Assembly (NCBI GenBank): GCA_013415565.1
Contig: JAAEET010000015.1
Location: forward strand, 1 to 36,874
Source: Methanomicrobiales archaeon
Lineage (GTDB): Archaea; Halobacteriota; Methanomicrobia; Methanomicrobiales; Methanospirillaceae
DNA: 36,874 nucleotides
Direction of reading: 5' to 3'
In this document: one piece after another, positions 4,702-21,198 of the stretch
Numbering within the stretch: the first letter of the stretch is position 1
Layout of the letters: every line of letters starts with the position of its first letter
Made by a program: the position numbers and the translations under genes
Notes under the pieces: model-generated
Database searches by the model: none
Seen by the model: only the letters and a program-made list of their open reading frames with translations
Told to the model about the DNA's origin: nothing

Positions 4702-6363
4702 TCATTCGTCTTTCCGGGTGTTCTTCCCTTCGCCGGAAAGTTCCCGCTCCCTGAGCACGTTCCGCTTGATCTTGCCCGAGATGGTTTTTGGCAAATCGTC
4801 GGTGAATTCGATGGCACGGGGATACTTGTAGGGGGCGGTATGTTTCTTGACGAACTTCTGGATGTCTTTGGCCAGCTGCTCCGACGGCTGGTAGCCATCC
4901 TTCAGCACGATGAAGGCCTTGACGATCATGCCCCGGATGACATCCGGCGAGCCGACGACGGCCGCCTCCCTGATCGCGGGGTGCTCGAGGAGGGCGCTCT
5001 CCACCTCGAAGGGGCCGATGCGGTAACCGGAGGACTTGATCACGTCGTCGTCCCGGCCCACGAACCAGAAGTAGCCGTCCTCGTCCATGTATGCCTTGTC
5101 GCCGGTGTAGTAGTAGTCGCCGGCAAAAACCTCCTCGTTGGCCTCCTTGTCGTAGAGGTAGCCGTCGAAGAGGCCGACCGGCCGGTCCGGTTTCACTTTA
5201 ATGGCGATCCGGCCCACCTCACCCCGGGGAACCGGTTTTCCGTCTTCGTCCTGGAGATCGATCTGCCACCCGGGAGAGGGCCTGCCCATCGAGCCGGCCT
5301 TCGCCTCCATGCAGGGGAAGGTGCCGATGACCAGCACGAGCTCGGTCTGGCCGTAACCCTCGTAGATGGTCAGGCCGGTCCCCTCCTTCCAGACCCGGAT
5401 CACCTCGGGGTTGAGGGGTTCCCCGGCGCTGACGCAGTGGCGGAGCTCTTTCAAGTCGAACTTTTCGAGATCGGCGAGTATCAGCATCCGGTAGACCGTC
5501 GGCGGGGCGCAGAAGACGGTGACCTCGTACTGCTCGAGCACCGGCAGGAGCTCGGTCGGCTTGAACCGGCCCCGGATATCGTAGACCAGGGTGCATGCGC
5601 CGCAGATCCAGGGGCCGAAGAACTTGCCCCACGAGGACTTGGCCCAGCCGGTATCGGCGAGCGTGAAGTGGAGATCGTTTTCCTTCAGGTCGAGCCAGAA
5701 GGCGCCGGTGGTGATGTGCCCGAGCGGCAGGGCGTGGTTGTGGAGCACCATCTTTGGCTCCCCGGTGGTGCCGGAGGTGAAGTAGATGACCATCGGGTCG
5801 GTGCCCTTCGTCTTTTCCATGCCGGCGACCTTCACCAGGCTTCGGGAGACCGGGGCAGGATAGGTCGTCTCTTCGATGTAGCTCACCCAGCCGGGGAGCT
5901 TTGCATCGGTGACCAGGCGTCCGGACAGCGTTGGGCATTCGTTGCAGATCTCCTCCACCTTGGGGGCGTTCTCCGCGTCAGTCACGATCATTTTGATCTT
6001 GGCCGCGTTGATCCGGTAGCGGAGGTCCTTCGTGGTGAGCATGGTCGGGCAGGGACAGAAGACCGCCCCGAGCTTGATGCAGGCGACGGCAAAAATCCAC
6101 CATTCCGGGACGCGGGGAAGCATGATGATAACCCGGTCGCCCTTCTTGACCCCGTACTTCAGGAGCATGTTTGCCGCCGAGTTGGAGAGGTTCATCAACT
6201 GGCGGAAGGTGAAAGTCTTCTCATTCCCCTCCTGGTTGACCCAGATCAAGGCCAGCCGGTTCCTGTCGGCAAGGCCCAGCCGGTCGATCACGTCGAAGCC
6301 GAAATTGTAGTATTCAGGGACCTCGATCCGGAAATCCCGGTAGGTCTCCTCGTAGTTGTCCAT
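4702..6363 (-). CDS. AMP-forming acyl-CoA synthetase 1 (acetyl/medium-chain type)
   Basis: A 553-residue member of the adenylate-forming superfamily, activating a carboxylic acid with ATP and CoA through an acyl-AMP intermediate. It shows the P-loop-like motif YFTSGTTGEPKMV at about residues 185-200, the motif YEGYGQTE in the middle, YYTGDKAYMDEDGYFWFVGRDDD with the hinge region, and the C-terminal catalytic lysine in TISGKIKR. The best match is the ACSM/medium-chain group that in Methanosarcina prefers branched or short acyl chains. The ATG at 6363 gives an N-terminus of the same length as the paralogue next door (both reach DFRIEVP within about 15 residues); an upstream ATG at 6384 would add seven residues. 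Its substrate is unknown. Confidence 0.88.
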   Translation of the reverse strand: MDNYEETYRDFRIEVPEYYNFGFDVIDRLGLADRNRLALIWVNQEGNEKTFTFRQLMNLSNSAANMLLKYGVKKGDRVIIMLPRVPEWWIFAVACIKLGAVFCPCPTMLTTKDLRYRINAAKIKMIVTDAENAPKVEEICNECPTLSGRLVTDAKLPGWVSYIEETTYPAPVSRSLVKVAGMEKTKGTDPMVIYFTSGTTGEPKMVLHNHALPLGHITTGAFWLDLKENDLHFTLADTGWAKSSWGKFFGPWICGACTLVYDIRGRFKPTELLPVLEQYEVTVFCAPPTVYRMLILADLEKFDLKELRHCVSAGEPLNPEVIRVWKEGTGLTIYEGYGQTELVLVIGTFPCMEAKAGSMGRPSPGWQIDLQDEDGKPVPRGEVGRIAIKVKPDRPVGLFDGYLYDKEANEEVFAGDYYYTGDKAYMDEDGYFWFVGRDDDVIKSSGYRIGPFEVESALLEHPAIREAAVVGSPDVIRGMIVKAFIVLKDGYQPSEQLAKDIQKFVKKHTAPYKYPRAIEFTDDLPKTISGKIKRNVLRERELSGEGKNTRKDE

Positions 6364-6390
6364 GGTAGAGCCGGAGCACGGCATATGAAC

Positions 6391-6434
6391 GGATATATTT
6401 CCCCGGAAGCGTCTTTAAGGTGTCTTTTTATATC
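6391..6434 (-). promoter_or_regulatory. Two TATA-box candidates for acyl-CoA synthetase 1
   Basis: On the minus strand GATATAAAAAG (6424-6434) and AAATATATCC (6391-6400) are both good archaeal TATA boxes. The first predicts a start of transcription near 6403 with a 40-nt leader, the second near 6370 with a very short leader. Which is used cannot be told. The remainder of the gap between the two synthetase genes (6435-6682) has no gene that I can support. Confidence 0.4.
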
Positions 6435-6682
6435 ACGGCGAAAAAAGGTGGTCTCGCAAGGATAAATGAAGAAAGGACAACGGGAACGATGAAATCCGGC
6501 GGGAGTCCGGTACGACCGTGTCCTGGCAGTTCATGCATCATCACGGTCTTCTTTCGACGGTCTGCACACTGCGCGTTCCCCCGCGGCGGCACCCTGCGAT
6601 ACGATCCCCTGGAAATTAAGGTTCATTCTTCCCCGACCGGGAAAAAGATGAGAATAAGCGGTTTTCCTTCTCCGGTCCGGAC

Positions 6683-8341
6683 TCATTCCTCGATCAGGGC
6701 CTTCTGCATCTCTATCTGCCGGAGCTCGTTCCGCTTGATCTTGCCGGAGAGCGTCTTCGGAAGCTCGTCCACGAACTCAACGGCCCGCGGGTACTTGTAG
6801 GGGGCGGTCGTCCGGCGGACGTGTGACTGGATGTCCTTGATAAGGGTCTCGGACGGCTCATACCCGGGCTTGAGCACGATGAAGGCTTTCACGATGACCC
6901 CCCGGATCAGGTCCGGTGAGCCCACAACGGCGGATTCCTGGACGGCGGGGTGCTCGAGAAGCGCACTCTCCACCTCGAAGGGACCGATCCGGTAACCGGA
7001 AGACTTGATGATATCATCGTCCCGGCCGACGAACCAGAAGTAGCCGTCCTTGTCCATGTACGCCTTGTCACCGGTATAGTAGAACCCGTTCACGAACGAG
7101 ACCGCGTTCGCCTCGGGGCTGTTGATGTACTCGACAAAGAGGCCCACCGGGCGCGGGTTGAGGGAGATGGCGATCCGTCCTTCCTCACCCATCTCGACCG
7201 GCTTTCCCTCATCATCATGGAGTTCGACATGCCATCCCGGCGCAGGTTTGCCCATCGAACCCGGCTTAGTCTCCATCCCCCGGAAGGTGCCGATGCAGCA
7301 GACGGTCTCGGTCTGGCCGTAACCCTCCGATATGGTCTGGCCGGTGCCTTCCATCCAGACCCTGACCACCTCGGGATTGAGCGGCTCCCCTGCACTGGTG
7401 CAGCGACGGAGCTCGCGGAGATCGAACTTTTCGAGGTCGGCAAGGATCAGCATCCGGTAGATGGTAGGCGGCACACAGAACGTGGAGATCTCGTATTTCT
7501 CGAGGAGGGGGAGCAACTCGGTCGCCTTGAACTTGCCCCGCACATCGTAGACAAAGATGCAGGCCCCGCAGATCCACTGGCCGAAGATCTTGCCCCAGGC
7601 GCACTTCGCCCAGCCGGTATCAGAGGACGTGAAATGGACATCATGGTCCGAGACATCCTGCCAGAGCCGGGCGGTGACGATATGCCCGAGGGGGTAACTC
7701 TGGTTATGGAGCACCATCTTCGGCTCACCCGTTGTCCCCGAAGTGAAGTAGATCAGCATCGGATCGGTGGAAAGCGTCTTTTTTCCGGACGGCAGGCTGA
7801 CAGACCGGAAGGAGACCGGTGCAGGATAGAGCAACTCGTTTGGAAAGTTCACCCACCCGGGAAGTTCACCGTCGACCAGGAACCGGCATGTCAGGGTGGA
7901 GCACTCTTCGGTGACCTCCTCCACCTTGGCCGAGTTCTCGAGATTGGTGATGATCATCTTGAACTTCCCGGCATTCAGCCGGTAGCGGATATCCTTCGGG
8001 GTGAGCATGGTCGGGCAAGGACAGAGCACCGCGCCGAGCTTGATCAGGGCGATGACAAAGATCCACCACTCCGGGATCCGGGGGAGCATCAGGAGTACCC
8101 GGTCGCCTTTCTGGATGCCGTACTTGATCAGGATATTTGCCGCCTGGTTTGAGAGATTTTTCAGGTCCCGGAACGAGTACTTCTTCTCCTCTCCCTTCTG
8201 GCTGACCCAGATCATGGCCAGCTTGTTCCGGTCCTTCTCGGCCCAGGCATCAATCACATCGAAGCCGAAGTTGTAGTATTTGGGGACCTCGATCCGGAAG
8301 TCACAGCAGAGGCCCTCGTAGTCTGGATACCTGTCAGTCAT
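6683..8341 (-). CDS. AMP-forming acyl-CoA synthetase 2 (paralogue)
   Basis: A 552-residue paralogue of the preceding synthetase, with collinear motifs: YFTSGTTGEPKMVLHN, the GYGQTE adenylation motif, YYTGDKAYMDKDGYFWFVGRDDD and the C-terminal TLSGKIKR. The two proteins share long identical runs, so they arose by tandem duplication, but differ in the putative acyl pocket (for instance AGCTLVYD.. versus AGACIFVYD.. and the segment after DRPVGLF). The start codon ATG at 8341 has no Shine-Dalgarno sequence. A TATA element at 8382-8388 lies about 45 nt upstream. Separate promoters for the two copies suggest different regulation, perhaps for acetate versus longer acids. Confidence 0.88.
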   Translation of the reverse strand: MTDRYPDYEGLCCDFRIEVPKYYNFGFDVIDAWAEKDRNKLAMIWVSQKGEEKKYSFRDLKNLSNQAANILIKYGIQKGDRVLLMLPRIPEWWIFVIALIKLGAVLCPCPTMLTPKDIRYRLNAGKFKMIITNLENSAKVEEVTEECSTLTCRFLVDGELPGWVNFPNELLYPAPVSFRSVSLPSGKKTLSTDPMLIYFTSGTTGEPKMVLHNQSYPLGHIVTARLWQDVSDHDVHFTSSDTGWAKCAWGKIFGQWICGACIFVYDVRGKFKATELLPLLEKYEISTFCVPPTIYRMLILADLEKFDLRELRRCTSAGEPLNPEVVRVWMEGTGQTISEGYGQTETVCCIGTFRGMETKPGSMGKPAPGWHVELHDDEGKPVEMGEEGRIAISLNPRPVGLFVEYINSPEANAVSFVNGFYYTGDKAYMDKDGYFWFVGRDDDIIKSSGYRIGPFEVESALLEHPAVQESAVVGSPDLIRGVIVKAFIVLKPGYEPSETLIKDIQSHVRRTTAPYKYPRAVEFVDELPKTLSGKIKRNELRQIEMQKALIEE

Positions 8342-8456: not shown

Positions 8457-9011
8457 ATGATCCCTGCGAAGTACGATTCGCTGAAGATCGAGAATATCGT
8501 GGCATCGGGGGCGATAGCCGATTCCATCAACCTCGCGGAGGTGGCGGAACGGGTGGACTCCTGCGAGCTCAATACAAAACGGTTCCCCGGGGCGGTCCTG
8601 AGGATAGAGGAACCGAAAATCGCCTCGCTCATCTTCTCCTCAGGAAAGGTGGTGCTGACCGGTATCCGGAATGAGGAGGCTCTCGCCGCAGGCCTCGCCC
8701 ACATCATCAAGGAGATGCGCAACGCCGGAGTGGATACCTATGATACGCCGAGAGTCGCCATCACCAACATCGTCTGTTCCTACGACATCGGGAAATATAT
8801 CAACCTGAATAAGCTGGTGATCACCCTGAACCTCGAGAATATCGAGTACGAGCCGGAGCAGTTTCCCGGCCTGGTCTACCGGCTCGGCGACCCGAAGATC
8901 GTCGCCCTTCTCTTCTCCTCGGGAAAGATCATCCTGACCGGGGGAAGGAATCTCGAAGATATCAGGAGAGGCCTCGACCTCCTTGAAACGAAACTCGGGA
9001 ACGTGATATGA
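8457..9011 (+). CDS. tbp: TATA-box binding protein
   Basis: A 184-residue protein made of two direct repeats of the TBP saddle fold (about residues 8-92 and 99-182). Each repeat has the FPG and (L)xFSSGK motifs, and the four phenylalanines that kink TATA DNA are kept (F43, F60, F136, F153). It recruits TFB and RNA polymerase to promoters. The first repeat is more divergent than usual (RFPGAVLRIEEPKIASLIF), and there is no acidic C-terminal tail, so it may be one of several TBPs in the genome. The ATG is preceded by GGTAGAG. It ends 1 nt from the convergent helicase gene. Confidence 0.95.
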   Translation: MIPAKYDSLKIENIVASGAIADSINLAEVAERVDSCELNTKRFPGAVLRIEEPKIASLIFSSGKVVLTGIRNEEALAAGLAHIIKEMRNAGVDTYDTPRVAITNIVCSYDIGKYINLNKLVITLNLENIEYEPEQFPGLVYRLGDPKIVALLFSSGKIILTGGRNLEDIRRGLDLLETKLGNVI

Positions 9012-9012
9012 T

Positions 9013-11703
9013 TCACCAGTACTTCCGGGTCCGGATGTAGTTCCGTTCCGCTTTCAGGATCTCGGCAAAGAAGGCATCGCCATCGGTGAGCGTGGCGAGG
9101 ATCCGGGAAGCGATCTCCGGCCCGACTCCTTTGGCCGCAAGCGTGAGGACCGCTTTTTTTCCGCCCGAGAGCACGATGTTTGCGTTCCGGAACAGGCGCG
9201 CCTCGACGGCCTTCTCCTCTCCGGACTTCTCCTTCTTCGCCGCTACGGCATACAGCGGCTCCTCCCAGGGCTTGAGTACGGCGATAAGCCGGGCGCCGCA
9301 CCTGGGGCAGACCGGATGCTCCTGGACCCTGCCGGCAACCGTACGGCTTTTCCATTTCCGGCAGTTCATGCAGGCGAGGATGATCTCCTGCCCCTCGATC
9401 CGGCGCCTCAGCGTGGAAAGGACGGCCTGGTCGGTCAGGGGAGGAGGCATCTGGTCCCGCGATGAAAAGAGACCGTCCGCCCCGAGAATGGAAAGCCGGC
9501 CGATCTCTACGGCGATGGACCCGTCCCGGACCTGGGCAAGCACCCGGGCCGCGGCAGGGACGTCCATGTAGACCGAAAAGAGCTCCCGGTAGGCTTCCTG
9601 CTGTACCACGGTGTTTTCAAAGAGCTCGATCAGTCTGTAGCTGCTCAGGCGCTCGTAATCTGCATCGGGATCAATCGCCCCGAATTTCTTGGCGATCTGG
9701 ACCAGTTTCCATTTGAAGAGCGCCGTCCGTTTCATGGCGATCTGGAGGATGCCTTCGACATGGGCCGGATCGAGCCCGACCAGGACATCCCTGACGTCGG
9801 CCGCCGCAACGTGGGAGGGGAGACGGAAGAGGATGCGGTATGCATCGATCTCGATTCCCACCGTGGTCCCGAACCGTGCTGAGAGGAGGACCGAGATCGC
9901 CCTCCCGAGCGCCTCGTTGGCCCGGTGCCCGGCACAGCAGTTGCAGACCACTCCTTCCTGCCCGCTCTCAAGCATGATCAGCCGGTCATCCGGAACCCTG
10001 CTCCGGTTCCGGTCCATCTCGGCAAGGAAGGCGGAAGCGAACCGGTCGGACGGCCCACCGGCATCATATGCCGGAAACGATCGGGTCCTCCGGAGCTCCC
10101 CGACTTCCCGGGCGACGGCGAAAGGAACCGGGATCTGCTCCCCTTCCCAGGAGGGGAGCTCCCCCTTGACCCTGCGGGCGGGCTCGACAATGATCCTGCC
10201 CTCTTCCAGGTCGAGCACCCGCCAGAGCTGCCCCTTGGTGATGAACACCGCCCCGGTATAGACCGATCCCACCACGAACGATTCATCGAGGGTTCCGACG
10301 GTCCTGCGGGAGACCATGTCGAAGACCTGCACCTTCCGTTCATCGTGGATCATGGAGAGGTTGGCAGCGAGGTAGCGGCGGGCCCGGAGCGTGGTGATCA
10401 CCTCGTCGCCATCCAGGCGGATCAGGCGGTGCTCGGCCATCTGGGTGCAGACCCGGTCGAGGAGATCGCCTGCCATAGAGAACGTGGAGCACCGGCCTAT
10501 GATGCGCCGGATCCGTTCGCGGGAGATCCGGCCGTACTCCACCGCCATCCCGGCAACCTGGTTGGCGAGAACATCGGCGGGATTGAGCGGCGGGTGGACA
10601 TCCTCGACCTCCCCTGCCTTTGCCCGACGGGCGATGACCAGCGATTCGAGGAGGTCGTCGAATCCGGTGGCGAGGATGGTCCCCCGGGAGGTCTCGTACA
10701 GGCTGTGGCCCGCCCGGCCGACCCGCTGTACCAGCCGGGAGACCTCGCGGGGAGAGCCGAACTGGATCACGTGCTCGATGTGCCCGATATCGATCCCGAG
10801 CTCCATGGACGAGGTGCAGATCAGTCCCCTGAGCTGGCCTGCCTTGAACCGCTCTTCCGCATCGATCCTGACCTCCCGTGAGAGCGATCCGTGGTGCACA
10901 TCGACATCGCCGCGGGAGAAGAGCTGGTGGCCGAGCGCTTCGGCCGTCACCCGGGTGTTCACGAAGATCAGAGTGGAACCGTGCCGGTCCATCGCCTCTT
11001 CGATCCACCGGGCCTGTTTCTCGAAGGAGTCCCCGGCGAACTCAACGGAGATATCGAGGTGCTTGGACACATCAACCTCGACGACTGAAAAATCCCGCTC
11101 CCCGCAGAGGAAGCGTCCCATCTCCCCGGGATTCCCGACCGTTGCCGAGAGGCCGATCCGCTGGAACTCCCCGCAGTACTCCGCGAGCCGCTCCAGGGCA
11201 ACCGTGAGCTGTGCTCCCCGTTTGCCCCCGGCAAGCTCATGGATCTCGTCAACGATCACATACCGGATGTTCCGGAGGTGCTTCCTGAGCACCTTGCCCA
11301 TGAAGAGTGCCTGGAGCGTCTCGGGCGTGGTGATGAGGAGTTCGGGAGGGGAGAGGGCCTGTTTGCGCCGCTCCGTGGCGGTTGTGTCGCCGTGCCTGAC
11401 CCCCACGGTTATTCCGAGCTCAGTGCACCACCAGGATAAGCGCTGGAGCATATCCCGGTTCAGGGACCGGAGCGGGGTGATATAGAGGGCGGAGAAGCCG
11501 GCCGACCGCCCCTTCAGCAGGGCATCGAGGACCGGTATCATCGCACTCTCGGTCTTTCCCGTCCCGGTCGGCGCGATCAGGATCAGGTGCTTTCCCGCCT
11601 GCACCTGGGGAAGGGCGAGGCTCTGGATCTCGGAGAGCTCCGCAAATCCCCGTTTCCGGATACATTCCCGGACCTTCGGGTCAAGGTTCCTGGTCTGCTC
11701 CAT
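9013..11703 (-). CDS. Lhr-family superfamily 2 helicase (Lhr2-like)
   Basis: An 896-residue ATP-dependent nucleic acid helicase. Motif I APTGTGKTESA is at about residues 42-52, motif II is DEIH (about 151-154) followed by the Lhr signature GGKRGAQL, motif III is SATVGNP, and motif VI is QRVGRAGH. After the Lhr winged-helix core there is a zinc ribbon with two CxxC pairs (about 778-806) and a C-terminal helix-hairpin-helix (AAKGVGPEIASRIL), a layout typical of archaeal Lhr2 proteins involved in DNA repair or RNA-DNA hybrid unwinding. The ATG at 11703 has GGAGGAG upstream. A frame open to 11997 on the same strand only reflects overlap with the neighbour. Its start overlaps the end of the phosphoesterase gene by 23 nt. 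Confidence 0.9.
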   Translation of the reverse strand: MEQTRNLDPKVRECIRKRGFAELSEIQSLALPQVQAGKHLILIAPTGTGKTESAMIPVLDALLKGRSAGFSALYITPLRSLNRDMLQRLSWWCTELGITVGVRHGDTTATERRKQALSPPELLITTPETLQALFMGKVLRKHLRNIRYVIVDEIHELAGGKRGAQLTVALERLAEYCGEFQRIGLSATVGNPGEMGRFLCGERDFSVVEVDVSKHLDISVEFAGDSFEKQARWIEEAMDRHGSTLIFVNTRVTAEALGHQLFSRGDVDVHHGSLSREVRIDAEERFKAGQLRGLICTSSMELGIDIGHIEHVIQFGSPREVSRLVQRVGRAGHSLYETSRGTILATGFDDLLESLVIARRAKAGEVEDVHPPLNPADVLANQVAGMAVEYGRISRERIRRIIGRCSTFSMAGDLLDRVCTQMAEHRLIRLDGDEVITTLRARRYLAANLSMIHDERKVQVFDMVSRRTVGTLDESFVVGSVYTGAVFITKGQLWRVLDLEEGRIIVEPARRVKGELPSWEGEQIPVPFAVAREVGELRRTRSFPAYDAGGPSDRFASAFLAEMDRNRSRVPDDRLIMLESGQEGVVCNCCAGHRANEALGRAISVLLSARFGTTVGIEIDAYRILFRLPSHVAAADVRDVLVGLDPAHVEGILQIAMKRTALFKWKLVQIAKKFGAIDPDADYERLSSYRLIELFENTVVQQEAYRELFSVYMDVPAAARVLAQVRDGSIAVEIGRLSILGADGLFSSRDQMPPPLTDQAVLSTLRRRIEGQEIILACMNCRKWKSRTVAGRVQEHPVCPRCGARLIAVLKPWEEPLYAVAAKKEKSGEEKAVEARLFRNANIVLSGGKKAVLTLAAKGVGPEIASRILATLTDGDAFFAEILKAERNYIRTRKYW

Positions 11704-12439
11704 ACTCCTCCAGCGATGAAACCGGCCCGATGAAGGTGCCGTCGGGAAGGAAGACCTCGGCCGCGTCCCACCTGATACAGCGGGAGAGGGGCGAGAACGG
11801 ATCCCGGACCGTGCGTACCAGGTCATACCCCGACAGTTCGTTGAAGGCAGGCATGAACAATACCCGGGTTGACTCACGGTCGCCGGGCGGAAATCCCAGG
11901 CACTGCTCGTTTGCAGGCGAAAAGAGGTAGACGGGGGATCGCATGGCACATCCCACCTCGTCCCTGAGGCTCGCAAGCGGGTGGTGGTGGCCGGCAATGA
12001 TCAGGTGGCCGGCAAGCGAGGGGTCGGGGTACATGTGGCCGTGGACATAGCCGGTTCCGTCCACGACGGCCCCCTCTTTGGGCAGGATCTCTTCGGGTTC
12101 AAAGAACCGTTCGATACCGGTATCATGGTTGCCGGGAACGATACGGACCGGCACGAGCGACCGGAGGCGTTCGACTATCCCCGGGATCTCCCGGAACTCC
12201 TGCCGGGACGTGTAAGGTACCCCGTGTTTCAGGTCGCCGAGGATGATGAGGAGATCCGGGGCGGCATCATTGATACAGGCTTCGAGCCGTTCCAGCCGAT
12301 CCCTGCTTCGGCTCCGGAAATGAAGCCCGTGGCGGGCCAGGTCGGACTCGATTCCCAGGTGGAGGTCGGCAACCGAGAGCACCCGCATGGTATTGCTGAC
12401 CAGCAGCGCCGGTCCCCCTCCGAAAAATCCGAGGGTCAT
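11681..12439 (-). CDS. RPA-associated metallophosphoesterase (Rpe/COG1407-like)
   Basis: A 252-residue calcineurin-fold phosphoesterase. The metal-binding motifs are in order: VADLHLG, ILGDLKHG, PGNHD, HGH and AGHHHP. The GGPALLV segment ahead of VADLHLG is found in the archaeal family seen next to RPA genes in haloarchaea (rpe), where it is thought to be a nuclease or phosphatase in DNA repair. The ATG at 12439 overlaps the stop of the upstream gene as ATGA, which points to coupled translation; an ATG at 12388 would cut off the conserved N-terminus. No biochemical substrate can be inferred. Confidence 0.85.
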   Translation of the reverse strand: MTLGFFGGGPALLVSNTMRVLSVADLHLGIESDLARHGLHFRSRSRDRLERLEACINDAAPDLLIILGDLKHGVPYTSRQEFREIPGIVERLRSLVPVRIVPGNHDTGIERFFEPEEILPKEGAVVDGTGYVHGHMYPDPSLAGHLIIAGHHHPLASLRDEVGCAMRSPVYLFSPANEQCLGFPPGDRESTRVLFMPAFNELSGYDLVRTVRDPFSPLSRCIRWDAAEVFLPDGTFIGPVSSLEEYGADQEP

Positions 12440-13182
12440 AGCGGCTTGAAGACCTCTCGTGCCGGCTGGTAGCATTCATCTTCCTCCAGGAGGACGCGGA
12501 CCGCCTCCCGGAGCTCCCGGGCCCCGATACCGGACTTCCCGGCAATGACGGCGAGATCATCGTAGGAAATCCCCTTCTTCCCGGCAGACTCCCTGATAAT
12601 GGCGAGCACGGTTGCCGTGATCTCTTCCTTTGAGCGGCCTGCTCCGGGCGACGACACTCCCTCGAGCGCATGAGAGACCATCCCGGCGAGGTCCCTGATC
12701 CCCTCAACACCAATAGTGTACTGGCGGAGTGCCGTGATAACGGGCACCGGACCGGTTCCGGAACTGAGGGTTTCGGCAAGAAGGGCCAGCCGGTCACAGG
12801 TGATCTCTGCTGTCCTCACGATCCAGCGGTCCCGCATTTCCCGGTCTGATTCCTGGATATGGAGGAGCGAGACACCCGGGCCCTTATCCCCCGTGAAGAA
12901 GACCGCCTCGCCGACCACTGTCACGAACGAGGGTGCGGCGAGGTCCCGGAGCACCTCCTGCTGCTCCCGGTCAGGCCGTTCCGCCCTGATCTCGAACACT
13001 CCCGTGGGATCCGCCACCCTTCCGTACCAGAGGCCGGGACCCCGCTGTTCCGCCGCGGTGAGCGCCCCGGCTAAAAAGATCTGACGGCAGCATGCGCCGG
13101 TGGGCGTGAGTACCCGGTCCTGGCAGAGGGGTAATCGTGCCCGTGCATATTCGCCTGCAAATACCCGCGTCGTTCCTTCCAA
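12436..13182 (-). CDS. RPA-associated OB-fold protein (RPAP/COG3390-like)
   Basis: A 248-residue protein with an N-terminal OB-fold-like part (about residues 1-110, with ILAGAL.. and WYGRVADPTGVFEIRA) and a C-terminal winged-helix-like part (about 165-245, KEEITATVLAIIRE...). This is the pattern of archaeal RPA-associated proteins, which partner single-strand binding protein RPA3 or RPA1. In haloarchaea the gene order rpa-rpap-rpe is conserved; here the rpa gene is not adjacent and must lie elsewhere. The start is a TTG at 13182 with GGAG about 12 nt upstream; this gives the family's early VFAGEY block. Confidence in the family is good, in the start moderate. Confidence 0.75.
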   Translation of the reverse strand: MEGTTRVFAGEYARARLPLCQDRVLTPTGACCRQIFLAGALTAAEQRGPGLWYGRVADPTGVFEIRAERPDREQQEVLRDLAAPSFVTVVGEAVFFTGDKGPGVSLLHIQESDREMRDRWIVRTAEITCDRLALLAETLSSGTGPVPVITALRQYTIGVEGIRDLAGMVSHALEGVSSPGAGRSKEEITATVLAIIRESAGKKGISYDDLAVIAGKSGIGARELREAVRVLLEEDECYQPAREVFKPL

Positions 13183-13442: not shown

Positions 13443-16400
13443 ATGAAAACCAATCGCATCTTGCTGTTATTATTACTCTTGGTGCCCTTAGCGGGGATCC
13501 TCTGCCTGAGCGCTGCAGGGGATGTACCTGGCGCCACGGCACCAGTTCTCCCTGACACTGCTCCTTCCGGAGGGGGGGAGTATGGGGACACATTGTTTGG
13601 ACCAGCTGAACAGGACGGAATGCCTGCTTCACTCCCCCTTGTTTTTATCAGGAATGCCGGGCAGTTCCGTGACGACATACTCTTCATGGTCATATCCGAT
13701 GCCGGCCCGGTCTCATTCAGTACAGACGGCTCCGCATTCAGGGTGATCTCTCCCGAGAATGGACAGTCGGCGCTCCTCACCTACCGGTTTGAGGGGGCTT
13801 CGGGAGCGGCAGCCGTGGAAGGAGTGGACCGGCTCGACTGCGAGGCCAACTTCCTGTCGGGGGCCGACCCGTCAGCATGGATAACCGGCGTGGAGACCTA
13901 CCGTGCGCTCCGGTACGTCGACCTCTACCCCGGGATCGATCTCCTGTATGAAGGAGTACCCGACGGTCTCAAGAGCACCTATATCGTCCGGCCAGGTGCA
14001 GACCCCGGTGCCATCAATATTGAATACTCTGGCCAGGACGAACTCTCGATTGGCCCGGACGGAACCCTGCTCCTCGTCACCCCGGCAGGATCGATCACCC
14101 ACAGCGCTCCCTACTGTTATCAGGTGATCGATGGCTCGATAGTCGAGGTACGCTCAGCCTATACCGTATGCGGCCAGCATGTCGGTTTTGCAATCGGCTC
14201 CTATGACCCGGACTACGACCTGGTCATCGATCCGGTGATGAAGTATGGCCTGTACCTCAAGGGGACGGGGATGGCCGACGCGTTCGGAGTTGCCCTGGAT
14301 TCGAAGAGAAACGCCTATGTGACCGGCAGATCATTCCCCACCCCCTACGATGTCCCCGCGGACAGCAGCGGAAACAATGCTGGCGGGACCGATGTTGTCG
14401 TTGTCAAGATCAATCCCGACGGGACCGCACCGGTCTACATCACGTATCTCGGTGGTAATGGGGACGAGACCGGGTACGGTATCAGGGTCGATGGAGACGG
14501 GAGTGCGTATATTGCCGGAACCACCAACTCTACCGATTTCCCGGTGGCAAATCCCCTGCAGGCCGCACTGGCCGGACAGACTGATGCCTTCATCGCCCGG
14601 CTGGCACCGAACGGCACCTCCCTCATCTACTCGACGTATATCGGCGGAACCGGGCAGGACTACGGGTATGCCATCGACATCGACACGGCCGGGAATGCGT
14701 ATATCACCGGCAGCACCGATTCGAAGATCTTCCCGGTAACGAGCGTCCTCCACCATACCACCCTGGCGGGGATCAATGATGCCTACATCGTCAAGGTCAG
14801 CGCCGACGGGGAGGATCTGGTCTACTCCGAGTACATCGGCGGCATCATCATGGATACGGGATACGGGATCGCGGTCGACGAATCCGGCAGCGCCTATATC
14901 ACCGGCGAGACCTATTCCTGGAACTTCCCGGTGCTCAACGCCTACCAGCCTGCCTTCGGCGGCTACAGTGATGTCTTCATCACCAAGGTGGCTCCGGCAG
15001 GATACCCGTTCGTCTATTCCACTTATCTCGGCGGCTCGGACATGGACGGCGGCAGGGCGATCGATGTGGACGCCGCCGGCTATGCTTACGTGACCGGCCT
15101 GACCCGTTCACGGAATTTCCCGACAGCGGATGCATTCAAACCGGTCCAGCCCGGACTGATCTCATCGTTCTACAGCCGTCTTGCCCCATCGGGCAGCGCA
15201 CTCGCCTATTCGACGTATCTCACCGGGCCCGGTTTTGACGAAGGGCGGGGCATCGCTGTAACGCCTTCCGGATACGTCTATATCACCGGCATCACCAAGG
15301 CGCCGAACCTGCAGCTGTATGATCCCTTCCAGCCCGTATTCGGCGGCGGGGTATCGGATGCTTTCGTGGCGAAGTTCGTGAACGGCGAAGTGTTTCCCGC
15401 CTACCTCACCTATCTCGGAGGAGACGGCAAGGATGAAGGACATGCGCTGACAGTCGATGGTATCTGCGGCGTATATGTCGCCGGTCTGACCAAGTCCACC
15501 AATTTCCCGAGCTCGGATCCCTACCCGGATACCTTCATCCCGAAGGGTGACGGCGGATTCATTGTCCTGTTCTGGGACGAAGAGATCTGCTGCACCCCGC
15601 CGGTGGCCGGATTCAGTGCCGATCCCGATGCAGGATACGCACCTCTCGACGTGCAGTTCACGGATCTCTCGAGCGGGGAACCGGACTCATGGTTCTGGGA
15701 GTTCGGGGACGGTGCAACCTCCACCGAGCAGAACCCGGCTCATACCTACACCGGGGTCGGGAACTACACCGTCAACCTCACCGTGGAGAATTTATGCGGG
15801 ACCGACGAAACATCCGGAGTGATCATTGTCATCTGCCTTGAACCGGTGGCAGGGTTCGTAGCCGATCCCGATTCAGGATACGCACCCCTCGACGTCCAGT
15901 TCACCGACACGTCCCAGAACAACGTGACCTCGTGGTCATGGGAGTTCGGGGACGGTGCAACCTCCACCGAGCAGAACCCGGCTCATACCTACACCGAAGT
16001 CGGGAACTATACCGTCAACCTCACCGTGGAGAATTCATGCGGGACCGACGAAACATCCCGGATCATCCGGGTGGTGCCCTGCATCCCCCCTGTCGCTGAT
16101 TTCACCGCAAATCAGACCACCGGCCACCCCCCAGTGACGGTCCAGTTCTATGACCTCTCAACCCAGGATCCGACGGCATGGTACTGGGAGTTCGGTACGG
16201 GAGCGACCTCCACCGAACAGAATCCGGTCTACACCTACACCCAGATCGGCACCTACACCGTGAACCTGACGGTCTGGAACGACTGCGGCAATGACACGGT
16301 ATCGAAGATAGCATTTATTGTGACCGTTCCCTGTACCACGCCGATGACCACGGTTCCGACGACGATACCAACAACCTGCCCGACCACGGAACCAACGACG

Positions 16401-17987
16401 ATACCAACAACCTGCCCGACTACGGAACCAACGACGATACCAACAACCTGCCCGACTACGGAACCAACGACGATACCAACAACCTGCCCGACCACGGAAC
16501 CAACAACCGAACCGACTACGGAGCCGACCACGATACCAACAACCTGCCCAACTTCCGTGCCGACGACAGCACCGCCCCAGCTTCCGCATTCGTTCTATGG
16601 TGCGGTCACCCTGATGGGTGAGCCTGCACCGAACGGGACCACGATCACCGGCGTGGCTGAAGACGGCGGCGGCTCGCTTATCACCGATACGGAAGGTTTC
16701 TATGGAGATGAAGGCGCCCAGGATGACAAGCTCCTGGTGTATGGATCCATCGAGAATGGAGCTCCCATCTCCTTCTATGTGAATGGATACCGTGCCGAGT
16801 GCTATGATGTGGAGGACGAAGGACCCTGGCAGTGGACCTATCCATTCACCTCGGGAGAGGTGACCGAGCTCGATCTCCGGGTCGCTGAAACCCCGCCGGA
16901 ACCTCCCGTCGCGATCTTCTCTGCCAACACAACCTCCGGGAACGTGCCGCTGGTCGTAGGGTTCACGGATGACTCCCTCAACACCCCGACATCGTGGTTC
17001 TGGGAGTTCGGGGACAACGAGACCTCGACCGAACAGGACCCGGTCCACACCTACACAGGAGAAGGCACCTACACCGTCAATCTCACGGTGAGCAACGATG
17101 CCGGGGACAACACGCTCTCCCTGTCGGACTACATCACGGTGATCGTGCCCGAGCCCCTGCCGCCGGTCGCTGAATTCACTGCCAACCGCACCTCGGGACC
17201 GGCTCCGCTTGCCGTCGGGTTCACCGATGATTCGCTCAACAGCCCGACCTCCTGGTTCTGGGAGTTCGGGGACGGTGCAACCTCCACCGAGCAAAACCCG
17301 GTTCATACCTACACCGGGATCGGCAACTTCACGGTGAATCTGACAGCGGCAAACGACTACGGTGACGACTCAGTCTCCAAACAGGACTATATCACCGTCA
17401 CCACAGCGGCCGAGATGTACTACATCAACGCCACAGCCGGCATCGGGGGGATGATCAATCCGAGCGGCCTCGTTGAAGTCCTGCCGGGTGCCAATGCCAC
17501 CTTCAACATTACCCCGCTCTCATACTATACCGTCCGGACCATTACGGTGGATGATGCGATCGTAACTGCATTCTACACGTACACTTTCGAAAACGTCTAT
17601 CAAAACCACACCATCGCCGCAACGTTCAGGGCGACGAGCAGTGGAGGTGGCGGAGGAGGAGGAGGTGGTGGCGGCCCTGTCGTTACCACAATCCCCACGA
17701 CCGTGCCAACCACCCCCCTCGATCTGACCGGAGGAGTCTCTGACAGCGATACCGACGGAGGTGTGGTCACGACCATCCCGACCACCGAGATCCCCACTGA
17801 AACGCCCGTCGAAACGGCTGTCACCACCCCGGTCCCCACAACCACCGTTCCACCTGCCCAGCCGTTCTGGTCCCAGTTCCCGCTGGCCTGGCTGATCCCC
17901 ATCATCCTGGTGATCATCATCCTCGCGGCACTGGCCTACTACTACTACCAGAAAGAGAAGGGCGAAGAGCTCTTTGAAGAAGAATAA
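13443..17987 (+). CDS. Giant surface protein: SBBP propeller, five PKD domains, Thr/Pro stalk
   Basis: A 1514-residue type I membrane protein. In order: signal peptide (residues 1-25, MKTNRILLLLLLLVPL), a DUF7948-type N-terminal domain (about 55-275, NAGQF... and LYPGIDLLYEG), seven SBBP repeats of about 60 residues forming a probable closed seven-bladed beta-propeller (280-690, blades ending YITG/YVTG), PKD domains 1-3 (716-964), a Thr/Pro/Cys stalk from 36-bp repeats (973-1040), a FYG module (about 1045-1150), PKD domains 4-5 (1150-1322), a beta-rich domain with NATAGIGG, a poly-Gly tract, a second Thr/Pro linker, a membrane helix (about 1480-1500) and a charged tail (KEKGEELFEEE). It is likely an adhesin or envelope component. 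Confidence 0.9.
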   Translation: MKTNRILLLLLLLVPLAGILCLSAAGDVPGATAPVLPDTAPSGGGEYGDTLFGPAEQDGMPASLPLVFIRNAGQFRDDILFMVISDAGPVSFSTDGSAFRVISPENGQSALLTYRFEGASGAAAVEGVDRLDCEANFLSGADPSAWITGVETYRALRYVDLYPGIDLLYEGVPDGLKSTYIVRPGADPGAINIEYSGQDELSIGPDGTLLLVTPAGSITHSAPYCYQVIDGSIVEVRSAYTVCGQHVGFAIGSYDPDYDLVIDPVMKYGLYLKGTGMADAFGVALDSKRNAYVTGRSFPTPYDVPADSSGNNAGGTDVVVVKINPDGTAPVYITYLGGNGDETGYGIRVDGDGSAYIAGTTNSTDFPVANPLQAALAGQTDAFIARLAPNGTSLIYSTYIGGTGQDYGYAIDIDTAGNAYITGSTDSKIFPVTSVLHHTTLAGINDAYIVKVSADGEDLVYSEYIGGIIMDTGYGIAVDESGSAYITGETYSWNFPVLNAYQPAFGGYSDVFITKVAPAGYPFVYSTYLGGSDMDGGRAIDVDAAGYAYVTGLTRSRNFPTADAFKPVQPGLISSFYSRLAPSGSALAYSTYLTGPGFDEGRGIAVTPSGYVYITGITKAPNLQLYDPFQPVFGGGVSDAFVAKFVNGEVFPAYLTYLGGDGKDEGHALTVDGICGVYVAGLTKSTNFPSSDPYPDTFIPKGDGGFIVLFWDEEICCTPPVAGFSADPDAGYAPLDVQFTDLSSGEPDSWFWEFGDGATSTEQNPAHTYTGVGNYTVNLTVENLCGTDETSGVIIVICLEPVAGFVADPDSGYAPLDVQFTDTSQNNVTSWSWEFGDGATSTEQNPAHTYTEVGNYTVNLTVENSCGTDETSRIIRVVPCIPPVADFTANQTTGHPPVTVQFYDLSTQDPTAWYWEFGTGATSTEQNPVYTYTQIGTYTVNLTVWNDCGNDTVSKIAFIVTVPCTTPMTTVPTTIPTTCPTTEPTTIPTTCPTTEPTTIPTTCPTTEPTTIPTTCPTTEPTTEPTTEPTTIPTTCPTSVPTTAPPQLPHSFYGAVTLMGEPAPNGTTITGVAEDGGGSLITDTEGFYGDEGAQDDKLLVYGSIENGAPISFYVNGYRAECYDVEDEGPWQWTYPFTSGEVTELDLRVAETPPEPPVAIFSANTTSGNVPLVVGFTDDSLNTPTSWFWEFGDNETSTEQDPVHTYTGEGTYTVNLTVSNDAGDNTLSLSDYITVIVPEPLPPVAEFTANRTSGPAPLAVGFTDDSLNSPTSWFWEFGDGATSTEQNPVHTYTGIGNFTVNLTAANDYGDDSVSKQDYITVTTAAEMYYINATAGIGGMINPSGLVEVLPGANATFNITPLSYYTVRTITVDDAIVTAFYTYTFENVYQNHTIAATFRATSSGGGGGGGGGGGPVVTTIPTTVPTTPLDLTGGVSDSDTDGGVVTTIPTTEIPTETPVETAVTTPVPTTTVPPAQPFWSQFPLAWLIPIILVIIILAALAYYYYQKEKGEELFEEE
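14250..15530 (+). repeat. Seven SBBP (beta-propeller) repeats within the surface protein
   Basis: Blades end in the pattern AYVTG/AYITG/AYIAG/VYITG/VYVAG followed by T/R-x-S and a FP or NF segment; the intervening strands read STYIGG, STYLGG or LTYLGG. Counting gives seven copies, the size of a typical closed propeller. Confidence 0.7.
15590..16078 (+). repeat. Near-identical PKD domain pair
   Basis: Two neighbouring PKD domains (15590-15833 and 15840-16078) are almost identical at the DNA level over about 125 nt, from the WEFGDGATSTEQNPAHTYT region through ENxCGTDETS. Scattered substitutions are few, which points to recent duplication or gene conversion. A block of the same sequence also recurs in the fifth PKD domain (17256-17320). 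Confidence 0.75.
16361..16560 (+). repeat. 36-bp tandem repeat encoding a Thr/Pro/Cys stalk
   Basis: Four complete 36-bp units (16361-16396, 16397-16432, 16433-16468, 16469-16504) differ only at one position (GACCAC versus GACTAC), followed by a degenerate tail to about 16560. Each unit encodes 12 residues of TTIPTTCPTTEP type, giving one cysteine per 12 residues. High identity suggests recent slippage or unequal crossover. It separates PKD domain 3 from the FYG module. Confidence 0.85.
16577..16886 (+). other. FYG module (surface-protein building block), copy 1
   Basis: A stretch of about 100 residues reading LPHSFYGAVTLMGEPAPNGT at its start and ELDLRV at its end, between the Cys-bearing stalk and PKD domain 4 of the giant surface protein. 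The same pattern recurs at 30997-31325 and 36588-36857. It probably folds as a small beta sandwich; no named family is certain. Confidence 0.7.
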
Positions 17988-18105: not shown

Positions 18106-19074
18106 ATGGACGAGAGCCACACTATTTGGATTGAGAAGTACCGGCCGGCGAAGCTTGCCGATATCGTCGGCCAGGACGAGATCGTGGAACGCCTCCAGTC
18201 CTATGTGAAAGCAGGCAGCCTCCCGCACCTGCTCTTCACCGGTCCGGCCGGGGTGGGAAAGACCACGGCGGCAGTCGCCCTCGCAAAAGAGTTCTTCGGT
18301 GAAGCCTGGCATATGAACTTCCGGGAGCTCAATGCGTCCGATGAACGCGGTATCGATGTGGTGAGAAACCAGATCAAGCAGTTCGCCCGGACCTCGCCGC
18401 TTGGTGAAGCATCCTTCAAGATTCTCTTCCTCGATGAGGCCGACGCGCTCACCCCGGACGCCCAGGCTGCCCTCCGGAGGACGATGGAGAGCTACGCCCA
18501 GACCTGCCGGTTCATTCTCTCCTGCAACTACTCCTCAAAGATCATCGATCCCATCCAGAGCAGGTGCGCAATCTACCGGTTCCGGCCCCTTGAGCGGACC
18601 GCAATCGCGGAGGAGATACACCGCATCGCCCGGAGCGAGAACCTTACCGTCACCGATGATGCCCTCGAGGCCATCACCTACATCGCCCAGGGAGACATGA
18701 GGAAGGCCATCAACGCCCTCCAGGGCGCCGCTATCCTCTCACCCGAGATCACCAAGGCAGGGGTCTATGCCATCACGGCGACGGCAAAACCCGAGGAGAT
18801 CAACGAACTCCTCGACCTCTCCCTGTCCGGGGATTTTGAAGGAGCCGAGCAGGTCCTCGCACAGCTCCTCCGTGAGCGGGGGATCGCTCCGAACGAGCTG
18901 ATCAACCAGTGCTACCGGGCCATTATCAAGCGGCCGATGGACGAGAGGCTGCGGGTGGCCCTGGTCGACCAGCTCGGGACCACCGACTTCCGGCTTTCCG
19001 AAGGAGCGAACAGTGATATCCAGATGGATGCACTCATCGCCCAGTTCGTGATCAATGCCAGACGGTTCAGCTGA
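18106..19074 (+). CDS. rfcS: Replication factor C small subunit
   Basis: A 322-residue AAA+ ATPase of the clamp loader that opens and loads the PCNA ring at primer ends. It has the RFC box-like IEKYRPA (residues 9-15), Walker A GPAGVGKT (46-53), DEAD Walker B (110-113), the SRC arginine-finger motif (152-154) and sensor 2 MRKAINALQ. Length and motifs are those of a fully active small subunit. The ATG has GAGGATAAGG just upstream. It ends 9 nt before mcm, with which it probably forms an operon. A second, degenerate RFC-small-like protein is encoded at 27429-28427. Confidence 0.96.
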
Positions 19075-19083
19075 GGGTGAAGG

Positions 19084-21198
19084 ATGGAGAACGAGCCCCA
19101 GACCGAGATCATCGACCGGGATGCAGACTGGAGCAAGTTCCTGAGAAGCCGCTACAAGAAGCAGCTCTCTGAACTCTCGCGGGAATTCCCCTACCGCAGG
19201 TCGCTCTTCATCGATTACCGGGAACTCGAGAGTTTCGGGAAGACCGGTATCAAGATGGCCGACGAGCTGCTCGGAAACCCCGGCAAGGTGATCGGGGATG
19301 TTCGATCGGCCATCGGTGCCCACCAGCTCATCAAGACCCGGGACGGAAAGGCAGCAAAAGAGGTCAATATCCGGTTCATCAACCTGCCGCGGAAGATCGC
19401 CATACGGCAAATCCGATCGGACCATATCAACACTTTTATCAGCGTCGAGGGAATCCTCCGGAAAACCACGGAAGTCCGGCCCCGGGTAGTGGAGGCGCAC
19501 TTCCGGTGCCCTGCCGGGCACATCACCATCAGGAATCAGGGGTACGGGAAGTTCCGGGAGCCGGACGGGTGTGAAACTGACGGGTGCACGTTCAAGAAAC
19601 TGGAGCTTATCCCGAAACGCTCGCGCTTCGTCGATTCGCAGAAACTCCGGATCCAGGAATCGCCCGAGGGGCTCAGGGGGGGGGAGCAACCCCAGACCCT
19701 CGATGTCGATGCCACCGATGATACGACCGGGAAGGTGGCCCCGGGTGACCGGGTGATCATCAACGGTATTCTCCGGTCCATGCAGCGGGTCAGCCACGGT
19801 GAAAAGAGCACCATCTTTGACATTTACCTGGAATGCAACTCGATCGAGATCGCTGAAAAAGAGTTTGAAGAGGTCCAGATCGAGGAGAAGGACGAGGAGG
19901 AGATCCTTTCCCTCTCGCACCATCCGAACATCTATGGGAAGATCACCCACTCCATCGCGCCGACCATCTACGGGAATGAGGATGTCAAGGAAGCGATCGC
20001 CCTGCAGCTCTTCGGCGGCATCACCAAGGAGATGCCGGACGGGAGCCACCTCCGCGGGGACATCCACGTCCTCCTGATCGGGGACCCGGGGATAGCCAAG
20101 AGCCAGCTGCTCCGGTACGTGGTCAAGCTCTCCCCGCGGGCGATCTACACCAGCGGGCAGTCGTCCACATCCGCCGGGCTGACCGCGACCGCGGTGAAGG
20201 ATGAATTCGGTGACGGGAGGTGGACACTTGAGGCCGGTGCGCTCGTCCTCGCGGACATGGGGATTGCCGCCGTCGATGAGATGGACAAGATGCAGAAAGA
20301 AGACCGGAGCGCGCTCCACGAGGCGATGGAACAGCAGTCGATCAGCGTGGCCAAGGCCGGCATCACCGCCACCCTGAAATCCCGCTGCGCCCTGCTCGGT
20401 GCCGCCAATCCGAAATACGGCCGTTTCGATGAATTCACCCCCATCGGCGAGCAGATCAACATGCCGGCATCCCTCCTCTCCCGCTTCGACCTCATCTTCG
20501 TCATGGGGGACAAGCCCGATCCCCAGCGCGACGGTGCGATTGCCGAACATATCCTCAAAGCCCACAGTATCGGTGAGACCATCGCGCAGCACGCAAAGAG
20601 CCCTATCCCGGGGGTCGATGATGCGTATATCACGGAGCAGCTCAAACCGGTCACTCCGGACATCGAGCCCGTCATCTTCCGGAAATACGTCGCATATGCC
20701 AAGCGGACCTGCTTCCCCCGCCTCTCCGATGCCGCGCGGGAATCGCTGGTGGATTACTACATGCGCCTGAGGGGTCTCGCATCGGAGTCGACCAAACCGG
20801 TTCCCGTCACCGCCCGCCAGCTGGAAGCGCTGGTGCGGCTCGCGGAGGCAAGCGCCCGAATCCGCCTCTCGTCCGATATCGAGCTCGCCGATGCCGAACG
20901 GGTGATCGGTATCGTCGATACCTGCCTGCGGCAGGTTGCCTATGATCCCAAGACCGGGACTTTTGATATCGACAAGGTGGTAACCGGAATCTCGAAAGGG
21001 AAACGGGACCTCATCCGCACCATCAAGGAAGTCATCCGGCGGCTGGCCGATGAGAGCGGGCGGGCTCAGATTGACGAGGTGATCGATCAAATCTCCCGGG
21101 AGGGATACCAGCGGGACGAGATACGGAAACAGATCGATATGTTCCTTCGCCAGGGCGAGGCCATGGAACCAAAACCGGGCATCATCAAGCTCATCTGA
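19084..21198 (+). CDS. mcm: Replicative DNA helicase MCM
   Basis: A 704-residue hexameric 3'-5' helicase that unwinds DNA at the fork. The N-terminal domain carries a zinc-binding segment (about 141-168, CPAGH...DGCETDGC). The AAA+ core has Walker A GDPGIAKS (K339), Walker B with DEMDKM (about 398), and the SRFDLIF arginine-finger region. The C-terminus is a winged-helix domain (REVIRRLADE...). The length is normal and there is no intein. GGTGAAGG precedes the ATG. It follows rfcS by 9 nt, so clamp loader and helicase are probably made together. Confidence 0.97.
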   Translation: MENEPQTEIIDRDADWSKFLRSRYKKQLSELSREFPYRRSLFIDYRELESFGKTGIKMADELLGNPGKVIGDVRSAIGAHQLIKTRDGKAAKEVNIRFINLPRKIAIRQIRSDHINTFISVEGILRKTTEVRPRVVEAHFRCPAGHITIRNQGYGKFREPDGCETDGCTFKKLELIPKRSRFVDSQKLRIQESPEGLRGGEQPQTLDVDATDDTTGKVAPGDRVIINGILRSMQRVSHGEKSTIFDIYLECNSIEIAEKEFEEVQIEEKDEEEILSLSHHPNIYGKITHSIAPTIYGNEDVKEAIALQLFGGITKEMPDGSHLRGDIHVLLIGDPGIAKSQLLRYVVKLSPRAIYTSGQSSTSAGLTATAVKDEFGDGRWTLEAGALVLADMGIAAVDEMDKMQKEDRSALHEAMEQQSISVAKAGITATLKSRCALLGAANPKYGRFDEFTPIGEQINMPASLLSRFDLIFVMGDKPDPQRDGAIAEHILKAHSIGETIAQHAKSPIPGVDDAYITEQLKPVTPDIEPVIFRKYVAYAKRTCFPRLSDAARESLVDYYMRLRGLASESTKPVPVTARQLEALVRLAEASARIRLSSDIELADAERVIGIVDTCLRQVAYDPKTGTFDIDKVVTGISKGKRDLIRTIKEVIRRLADESGRAQIDEVIDQISREGYQRDEIRKQIDMFLRQGEAMEPKPGIIKLI

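Follow-up and report, generated by a model that had tools for sequence, protein, structure and literature searches.

What does a gene string do that carries the RPA-associated protein and the phosphoesterase of the haloarchaeal RPA operons, followed by a helicase, but no rpa gene? The question arises on contig JAAEET010000015.1 of a Methanomicrobiales archaeon (assembly GCA_013415565.1), whose whole 36,874 nucleotides are called the window here and which is one of the 80 contigs of a 1.69-Mb genome that is 93% complete. We regard the three open reading frames on its minus strand (9013-13182), with a probability of roughly 55%, as the Methanomicrobiales form of a DNA-repair string, rpa-rpap-mpe-lhr, without the first gene, that is, as a helicase-nuclease module accompanied by an RPA2-like adaptor. 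The genes follow one another in the order gene 1 (RPAP-L), gene 2 (MPE-like) and gene 3 (Lhr):

12436-13182, minus strand: gene 1, RPAP-L, an RPA2-like protein of 248 amino acids with a TTG start (AlphaFold2 model and fold matches)
12436-12439, minus strand: 4-nt overlap (ATGA) of the gene 1 stop with the gene 2 start
11681-12439, minus strand: gene 2, an MPE-like calcineurin-type phosphoesterase of 252 amino acids (PF00149 and model)
11681-11703, minus strand: 23-nt overlap of the gene 2 end with the gene 3 start
9013-11703, minus strand: gene 3, an Lhr-core helicase of 896 amino acids (PF00270, PF00271, PF19306 and PF08494, all above cut-off)

A sequence-only reading of the window had proposed three overlapping genes, the first two matching the haloarchaeal rpap-rpe pair, with no adjacent rpa and a role in the handling or repair of single-stranded DNA. 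The overlaps and the missing neighbor were confirmed, gene 1 proved to have an RPA2-like fold (OB fold plus winged helix) and gene 2 an MPE-like fold of the same kind as the haloarchaeal enzyme, and a repair role is plausible.

The arrangement is kept throughout the order. Across a sample of 120 Methanomicrobiales genomes, homologues of gene 1 were found in 117, of gene 2 in 114 (E ≤ 1e-8) and of the helicase in 113 (E ≤ 1e-90). Phosphoesterase and helicase genes adjoined on the same strand in 110 genomes, to which two with a split phosphoesterase match (G087, G091) can be added, and all three genes stood in order in 108 (80 from the matches listed, all 20 of the further stretches inspected and eight more), with the tight overlaps retained throughout. 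The helicase thus accompanies the pair well beyond this genome, and such constancy of adjacency and order indicates that the grouping is not due to chance. Among the exceptions, the helicase lay on another contig (G047), gene 1 sat about 1.05 kb upstream of the phosphoesterase (G102) or the locus stopped at a contig edge (G032, G114, G092). Genome searches found no helicase or close phosphoesterase in seven genomes, namely G050, G056, G061 and G110 (completeness 86% or less, many contigs each), G111 (81%), G055 (94%) and G001 (99%).

The last of these is a single contig on which RPAP-L lies between MCM-RFC and the TATA-binding protein (TBP) gene, as in the window (L291, C1:2660000-2676000). 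MPE and Lhr were absent between RPAP-L and TBP and were not found elsewhere in that genome, and G031, of the same genus, has all three genes in order. G055 likewise kept RPAP-L and lacks the MPE-Lhr pair. Given the joint absence in G001 and the persistence of RPAP-L in both genomes, MPE and Lhr behave as one unit from which RPAP-L is separable, and an obligate role of RPAP-L as an MPE-Lhr subunit is correspondingly weakened.

Comparison with haloarchaea showed where the helicase belongs in the string. Of 28 named haloarchaeal loci, 15 carry rpa, rpap, mpe and lhr in succession on the same strand, for example those of Haloferax marisrubri, Haloferax marinum and a Halobacterium sp. (L168, L172, L178), with the helicase start up to 2.7 kb past the phosphoesterase in some strings; loci with under 5.5 kb of upstream DNA, and RPAP matches covering a winged helix only (MCM), were set aside in this count. 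That Lhr stands in for rpa, as the sequence-only reading suggested, is ruled out by this order: haloarchaea with a 5' rpa still have Lhr after the phosphoesterase, so that Lhr holds fourth place in the string and the gene missing from Methanomicrobiales is the first. One further haloarchaeal locus had RPAP and MPE, and another had MPE 5.7 kb away. Four genomes that fall among named haloarchaea in the OB-domain tree described below encode Lhr elsewhere (G135, G155, G160, G242), and all four still have the RPA-RPAP-MPE string.

Similar strings recur in further lineages, some of whose labels (Halo, Msar, Mcell) were assigned by likeness to named loci. Two of them, G142 and G232, carry all four genes in order. 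RPAP-L-MPE-Lhr without rpa was seen in both loci of family f15 and in one of three of family f16 with enough upstream DNA; the RPA matches that scored highest in G137, G128 and G159 lie outside the RPAP-L-MPE-Lhr string. In family f8, taken for Methanosarcinaceae, mpe-lhr occurs in eight of ten loci, and RPA with RPAP-L stands apart from it in three of three.

Gene 1 had escaped profile searches: Pfam gave nothing above cut-off and a sub-threshold MCM4 winged-helix match only, no NCBIfam model matched it, and phmmer against solved structures returned no meaningful match. Its TTG start is backed by homologues, which share the start point and the motif MExxxRVFA in alignments. The AlphaFold2 model (predicted local distance difference test score, pLDDT, 93.1) consists of an OB fold, a long helix and a winged helix:

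12847-13182, minus strand: OB-fold domain, residues about 1-112 (model strands E18-E111, aligned to RPA32 and Stn1 OB folds)
12760-12843, minus strand: long helix after the OB fold, residues 114-141 (AlphaFold2 model)
12439-12636, minus strand: C-terminal winged-helix domain, residues 183-248 (model and structure matches)

The closest solved structure is Pyrococcus abyssi Rpa2 (8aas_B, Z 15.7, 152 residues, root-mean-square deviation 2.8), equaled by Schizosaccharomyces pombe Stn1 (3kf6_A, Z 15.7). Its winged helix matched that of P. abyssi Rpa2 (9f27, Z 11.1, 64 residues, 23% identity) and the MCM C-terminus of M. thermautotrophicus (2ma3, Z 11.2); the C-terminal winged helix of the neighboring MCM resembles it too (profile E 7e-14). 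Gene 1 therefore has the single OB fold, helix and C-terminal winged helix of RPA2-like and RPAP proteins, in the same succession as in RPA2/RPA32 and Stn1 subunits, but unlike these it is encoded with a nuclease and a helicase and not with its own large subunit. The long helix lies at the place of the RPA2 trimerization helix and may have the corresponding role. As the winged helix of P. abyssi Rpa2 binds primase and PolD (PMC11686378), an RPA2-like protein with such a domain can recruit partners.

Where, then, is the RPA? The sole RPA gene of this kind in the genome lies on contig C48, where it overlaps RPAP-S, a shorter gene 1 paralogue, which stops short of any winged helix; PF21473 found nothing in this genome. 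Among the matches listed, RPA was found in 115 of the 120 order genomes, all 65 RPAP-S places adjoined RPA, and in none of the 108 genomes with both genes placed did RPA come within 10 kb of a phosphoesterase gene (28 same-contig comparisons, the others on different contigs). Adjacency to an RPA large-subunit gene, which is true of the named haloarchaeal RPAPs and not of all RPA2-like proteins, is thus absent for gene 1. On C1 of G001 and G031, from one genus of the order, the RPA and RPAP-S pair occurs in two tandem copies.

Outside the order, two pairings were seen, one RPA with RPAP-L (OB fold and winged helix) and another with RPAP-S. In an OB-domain tree of 53 rows, which were hand-picked across lineages and had at least 60 filled columns each, the RPAP-S proteins from every lineage sampled came together (SH-like approximate likelihood ratio test support 94) and gene 1 stood apart from them; row L117, labeled RPAP-L for its MPE linkage, was placed with RPAP-S at the end of a very long branch. 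In an RPA tree that kept 34 of 36 rows (two family f14 rows with RPAP-L fell out), the Methanomicrobiales RPA grouped with RPAP-S-linked RPAs (support 96). Both were quick trees with no bootstrap. Accordingly, the RPA missing from Methanomicrobiales is the partner of RPAP-L. A hidden second RPA was sought with a profile of the RPAP-L-linked kind in 115 genomes, and every match listed was a known RPA place; the search was aimed at that kind only, RPAs of other kinds not being sought, and weak extra matches may lie beyond those listed.

In Methanomicrobiales, the OB fold of RPAP-L has diverged fast. At 65-70% helicase identity, it was 37% identical in Methanomicrobiales (71 pairs) versus 69% in haloarchaea (123 pairs), while phosphoesterase identity in the same pairs was 57% versus 60%; the comparison covered 17 of the 22 named Methanomicrobiales loci (L134, L136, L138, L148 and L150, being short or split, were omitted) and 25 haloarchaeal loci, and its pairs are not independent. 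Within the same few Methanomicrobiales genomes, RPAP-L proteins were 32-39% identical (three pairs) and RPAP-S proteins 58-68% (six pairs). The best conserved RPAP-L segment in haloarchaea is the OB barrel (75%), and in Methanomicrobiales it is the post-OB helix, with 44.4% mean pairwise identity versus 34.8% for the barrel. This fast divergence would fit release from the RPA partner, though other causes are possible.

The same data bear on the best-surviving alternative, in which RPAP-L is a second, exchangeable winged-helix RPA2 for the cell's sole RPA of this kind and its proximity to MPE and Lhr is merely inherited. The persistence of RPAP-L without the pair in G001 and G055, the conservation of its helix and its place beside an RPA gene, not mpe-lhr, at the family f8 loci speak for such a role. 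A subunit of this sort would nevertheless have to be squared with the distance between RPA and phosphoesterase genes in all 108 genomes compared, with an OB fold diverged far beyond the linked genes and beyond RPAP-S of the same genomes, and with close overlaps with mpe-lhr retained throughout the order, and we consider it doubtful, while still giving it some credit.

The second gene carries the nuclease part of our preferred reading, a repair string without its rpa. PF00149 scored 40.2 bits (cut-off 21.5), and the metal-site motifs DLH, GD, GNHD, HGH and GHHH are present, most of their residues being invariant in 22 rows. The model (pLDDT 93.0) matched the Pseudomonas putida MPE nuclease best (6nvo, Z 19.1, 187 residues, 25% identity), the next-best match other than MPE reaching Z 11.8, and so the calcineurin-type fold and metal site of MPE-type nucleases are both in place. 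Since its scores lie below the equivalog cut-offs (TIGR00024, 72.2 versus 115.2 bits; TIGR04123, PdeM, 71.0 versus 150), we call it MPE-like and no equivalog member. P. putida MPE is reported to cut single-stranded DNA in a manganese-dependent manner (PMC7437997). In G053, G011, G093 and G113 the phosphoesterase match spans one TGA each, probably the gene's own stop.

In the same line, gene 3 contains all four Lhr-core domains (RecA1, RecA2, the Lhr winged helix and domain 4) and the motifs GKT, DEIH, SAT and QRVGR. Alignment of homologues placed its start at ATG 11703, the longest-frame start at 11997 being too long. Its best solved relative is 5v9x (E 9e-69), which we take to be M. smegmatis Lhr, and its closest named match is from Methanolinea sp. 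UBA277 (90%). On sequence, the window groups with Methanolinea and further Methanoregulaceae within the Methanomicrobiales. The bacterial ligase-associated Lhr model TIGR04121 scored 375.8 bits, short of its 850. A cysteine cluster was found near the C-terminal end:

9298-9372, minus strand: CMNC ... CPRC, gene 3 residues 778-802 (C778, C781, C799 and C802 unchanged across 14 Lhr rows)

The genome has one Lhr gene, and aLhr2 is reported missing from Methanomicrobiales (PMC8301817), so that the earlier label, Lhr2-like, is probably wrong and gene 3 probably aLhr1, going by the published distribution of the classes. An anti-phage defense system is unsupported: PADLOC assigned genes 1 and 2 to no defense family, and gene 3 matched 64 helicase models, with BrxHI at the top, which is no surprise for an Lhr relative.

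How might the three proteins work? Presumably co-expressed from one operon, Lhr, a 3'-to-5' translocase in studied relatives, would open the duplex at a stalled fork or lesion and the MPE-like enzyme would cut the exposed strand. The RPA2-like protein could hold single strands through its OB fold and recruit partners through its winged helix, the rest being coated by the one RPA of this kind left to the cell, which is encoded at another locus together with the wing-less RPAP-S. Lhr and MPE would form a tight pair, and RPAP-L an adaptor able to live without them. The likeliest lesions would be crosslinks or bulky mitomycin-type adducts. This is the least certain step; we hold the crosslink role tentatively, as a minority expectation, and a DNA-repair role in general is the more likely of the two. 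Deletion of yhcR, the phosphoesterase gene of the Halobacterium rfa2-rfa7-yhcR operon, lowered mitomycin C survival about 100-fold (PMC5924565), and a mycobacterial lhr mutant points at crosslinks (PMC11323726); these are different proteins in different organisms, linked only through the gene string. P. abyssi Lhr-2 was placed in an RPA-linked cluster by co-purification (PMC3820547).

Several results weigh against a joint repair module. Chief among them is that G001 and G055 have RPAP-L but not the other two genes, which means that the three need not form one complex. Among the named haloarchaeal Lhr loci, 11 of 28 have none of RPA, RPAP and MPE. The Halobacterium phosphoesterase mutant was normal for UV and ionizing radiation, and the results text describes no comparable drop for the rfa7 (RPAP) mutant, which nevertheless counts as affected in the heading and the discussion (PMC5924565). 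Finally, the mycobacterial Lhr core alone failed to restore crosslink resistance (PMC11323726), and the extra C-terminal domain of that protein is absent from the 896-residue archaeal one. A bolder version of the repair reading, in which RPAP-L, its RPA partner lost, is the dedicated single-strand-sensing subunit of an MPE-Lhr crosslink-repair machine, a protein of RPA2/Stn1 type working without RPA, seems unlikely to us; if true, a eukaryote-like adaptor would have joined a bacterial-type helicase-nuclease pair.

Still less probable is a module acting on RNA or RNA:DNA hybrids, in which Lhr would serve as an RNA/DNA helicase and the phosphoesterase would be a ribonuclease, with the RPA2-like protein taking care of displaced DNA. 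Archaeal aLhr2 is treated as a DNA/RNA helicase (PMC8301817) and M. smegmatis Lhr also unwinds RNA:DNA duplexes (PMC11323726), but the linked partner in haloarchaea is RPA, which binds single-stranded DNA, and the mutant phenotypes published in PMC11323726 and PMC5924565 are those of DNA damage. Equally improbable, the genes could be mere neighbors in a replication-gene district, without joint function, as divergent MCM and RFC beside RPAP-L and TBP at the other end might suggest, were it not for the recurrence of the string in haloarchaea, G142, G232, G137 and G128, the joint absence of MPE and Lhr in G001 and a published mpe-lhr linkage that reaches bacteria (PMC8301817).

Set against known systems, the repair string is closest to the haloarchaeal rpa1-rpap1-rpe operon of Haloferax volcanii (rfa2-rfa7-yhcR in Halobacterium salinarum), which has the same RPAP-L type followed by the same kind of phosphoesterase, and then, in the 15 loci counted above, Lhr, as here. 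There rpa comes first, whereas a divergent surface-protein gene lies upstream of gene 1; the haloarchaeal RPAP has a long acidic linker, which is missing here, where the OB fold has diverged much further. The bacterial Lhr-core/MPE cluster (P. putida type), which includes ligase and exonuclease genes, likewise has Lhr-core beside an MPE-like nuclease gene, matching the best structure for gene 2. In the window, no ligase or exonuclease gene directly adjoins (the neighbors are TBP and the surface-protein gene), an RPA2-like gene is present instead, and genes 2 and 3 fall below the cut-offs of the bacterial ligase-associated NCBIfam models. A TIGR00024/COG1407-like gene was reported upstream of alhr1 in six of nine Methanomicrobiales and in most Halobacteriales and Haloferacales, and the phosphoesterase adjoins bacterial Lhr in 276 of 319 genomes; the neighborhood account in that paper, annotated by TIGR models, leaves the RPAP gene unmentioned (PMC8301817). 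MrfA-MrfB of Bacillus subtilis, also a helicase and nuclease pair for mitomycin damage, is a functional analogy only, its nuclease being of the DEDDh exonuclease family and no RPA-like partner being named in the account at hand (PMC11194089).

Lhr-MPE linkage (stated likewise in PMC7437997), co-transcription of rfa2-rfa7-yhcR (PMC5924565) and the Haloferax rpa-rpap pairs (PMC7776575, PMC8329085) were thus known separately; new are the union of the Lhr-MPE linkage with the haloarchaeal rpa-rpap-phosphoesterase operon and the orphan state of RPAP-L. In the open-licence literature, we did not find the four-gene string, the orphan RPAP-L, its fast divergence or the joint MPE-Lhr loss in print. The two linkages prove to be halves of one string, which connects the mitomycin sensitivity of the Halobacterium phosphoesterase mutant, hitherto unexplained, with the neighboring helicase gene of a Halobacterium genome (L178). 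The role of an archaeal Lhr thereby becomes directly testable in genetically tractable haloarchaea, and the natural loss of an RPA partner with the small subunit kept offers a ready experiment on RPA2-like subunits alone.

The operon is flanked by replication and transcription genes:

8457-9011, plus strand: TBP gene, convergent flank (PF00352, E 5e-50)
18106-21198, plus strand: RFC subunit and MCM helicase genes, divergent flank

In 10 of the 22 named Methanomicrobiales loci, some of them with incomplete upstream DNA, MCM lies upstream of RPAP-L in divergent orientation. Between the operon and RFC-MCM lies the divergent surface-protein gene (13443-17987, plus strand), which resembles a secreted protein with PKD-like repeats (named by eye) and long threonine-proline runs; in G001 and G055, this 4.5-kb gene does not separate RPAP-L from RFC. 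A TATA-like stretch upstream of the operon suits the surface-protein gene better than the operon. A second, divergent RFC-like AAA gene (27330-28427, plus strand; Rep_fac_C and DNA_pol3_delta2 matches) has NMD3, TatD-type nuclease and Dfp-like genes upstream of it. Beyond TBP are two tandem, similar acyl-CoA synthetase-like genes, also named by eye (4702-8341, minus strand); G001 shares the TBP and AMP-binding flank, and G055 the AMP-binding flank.

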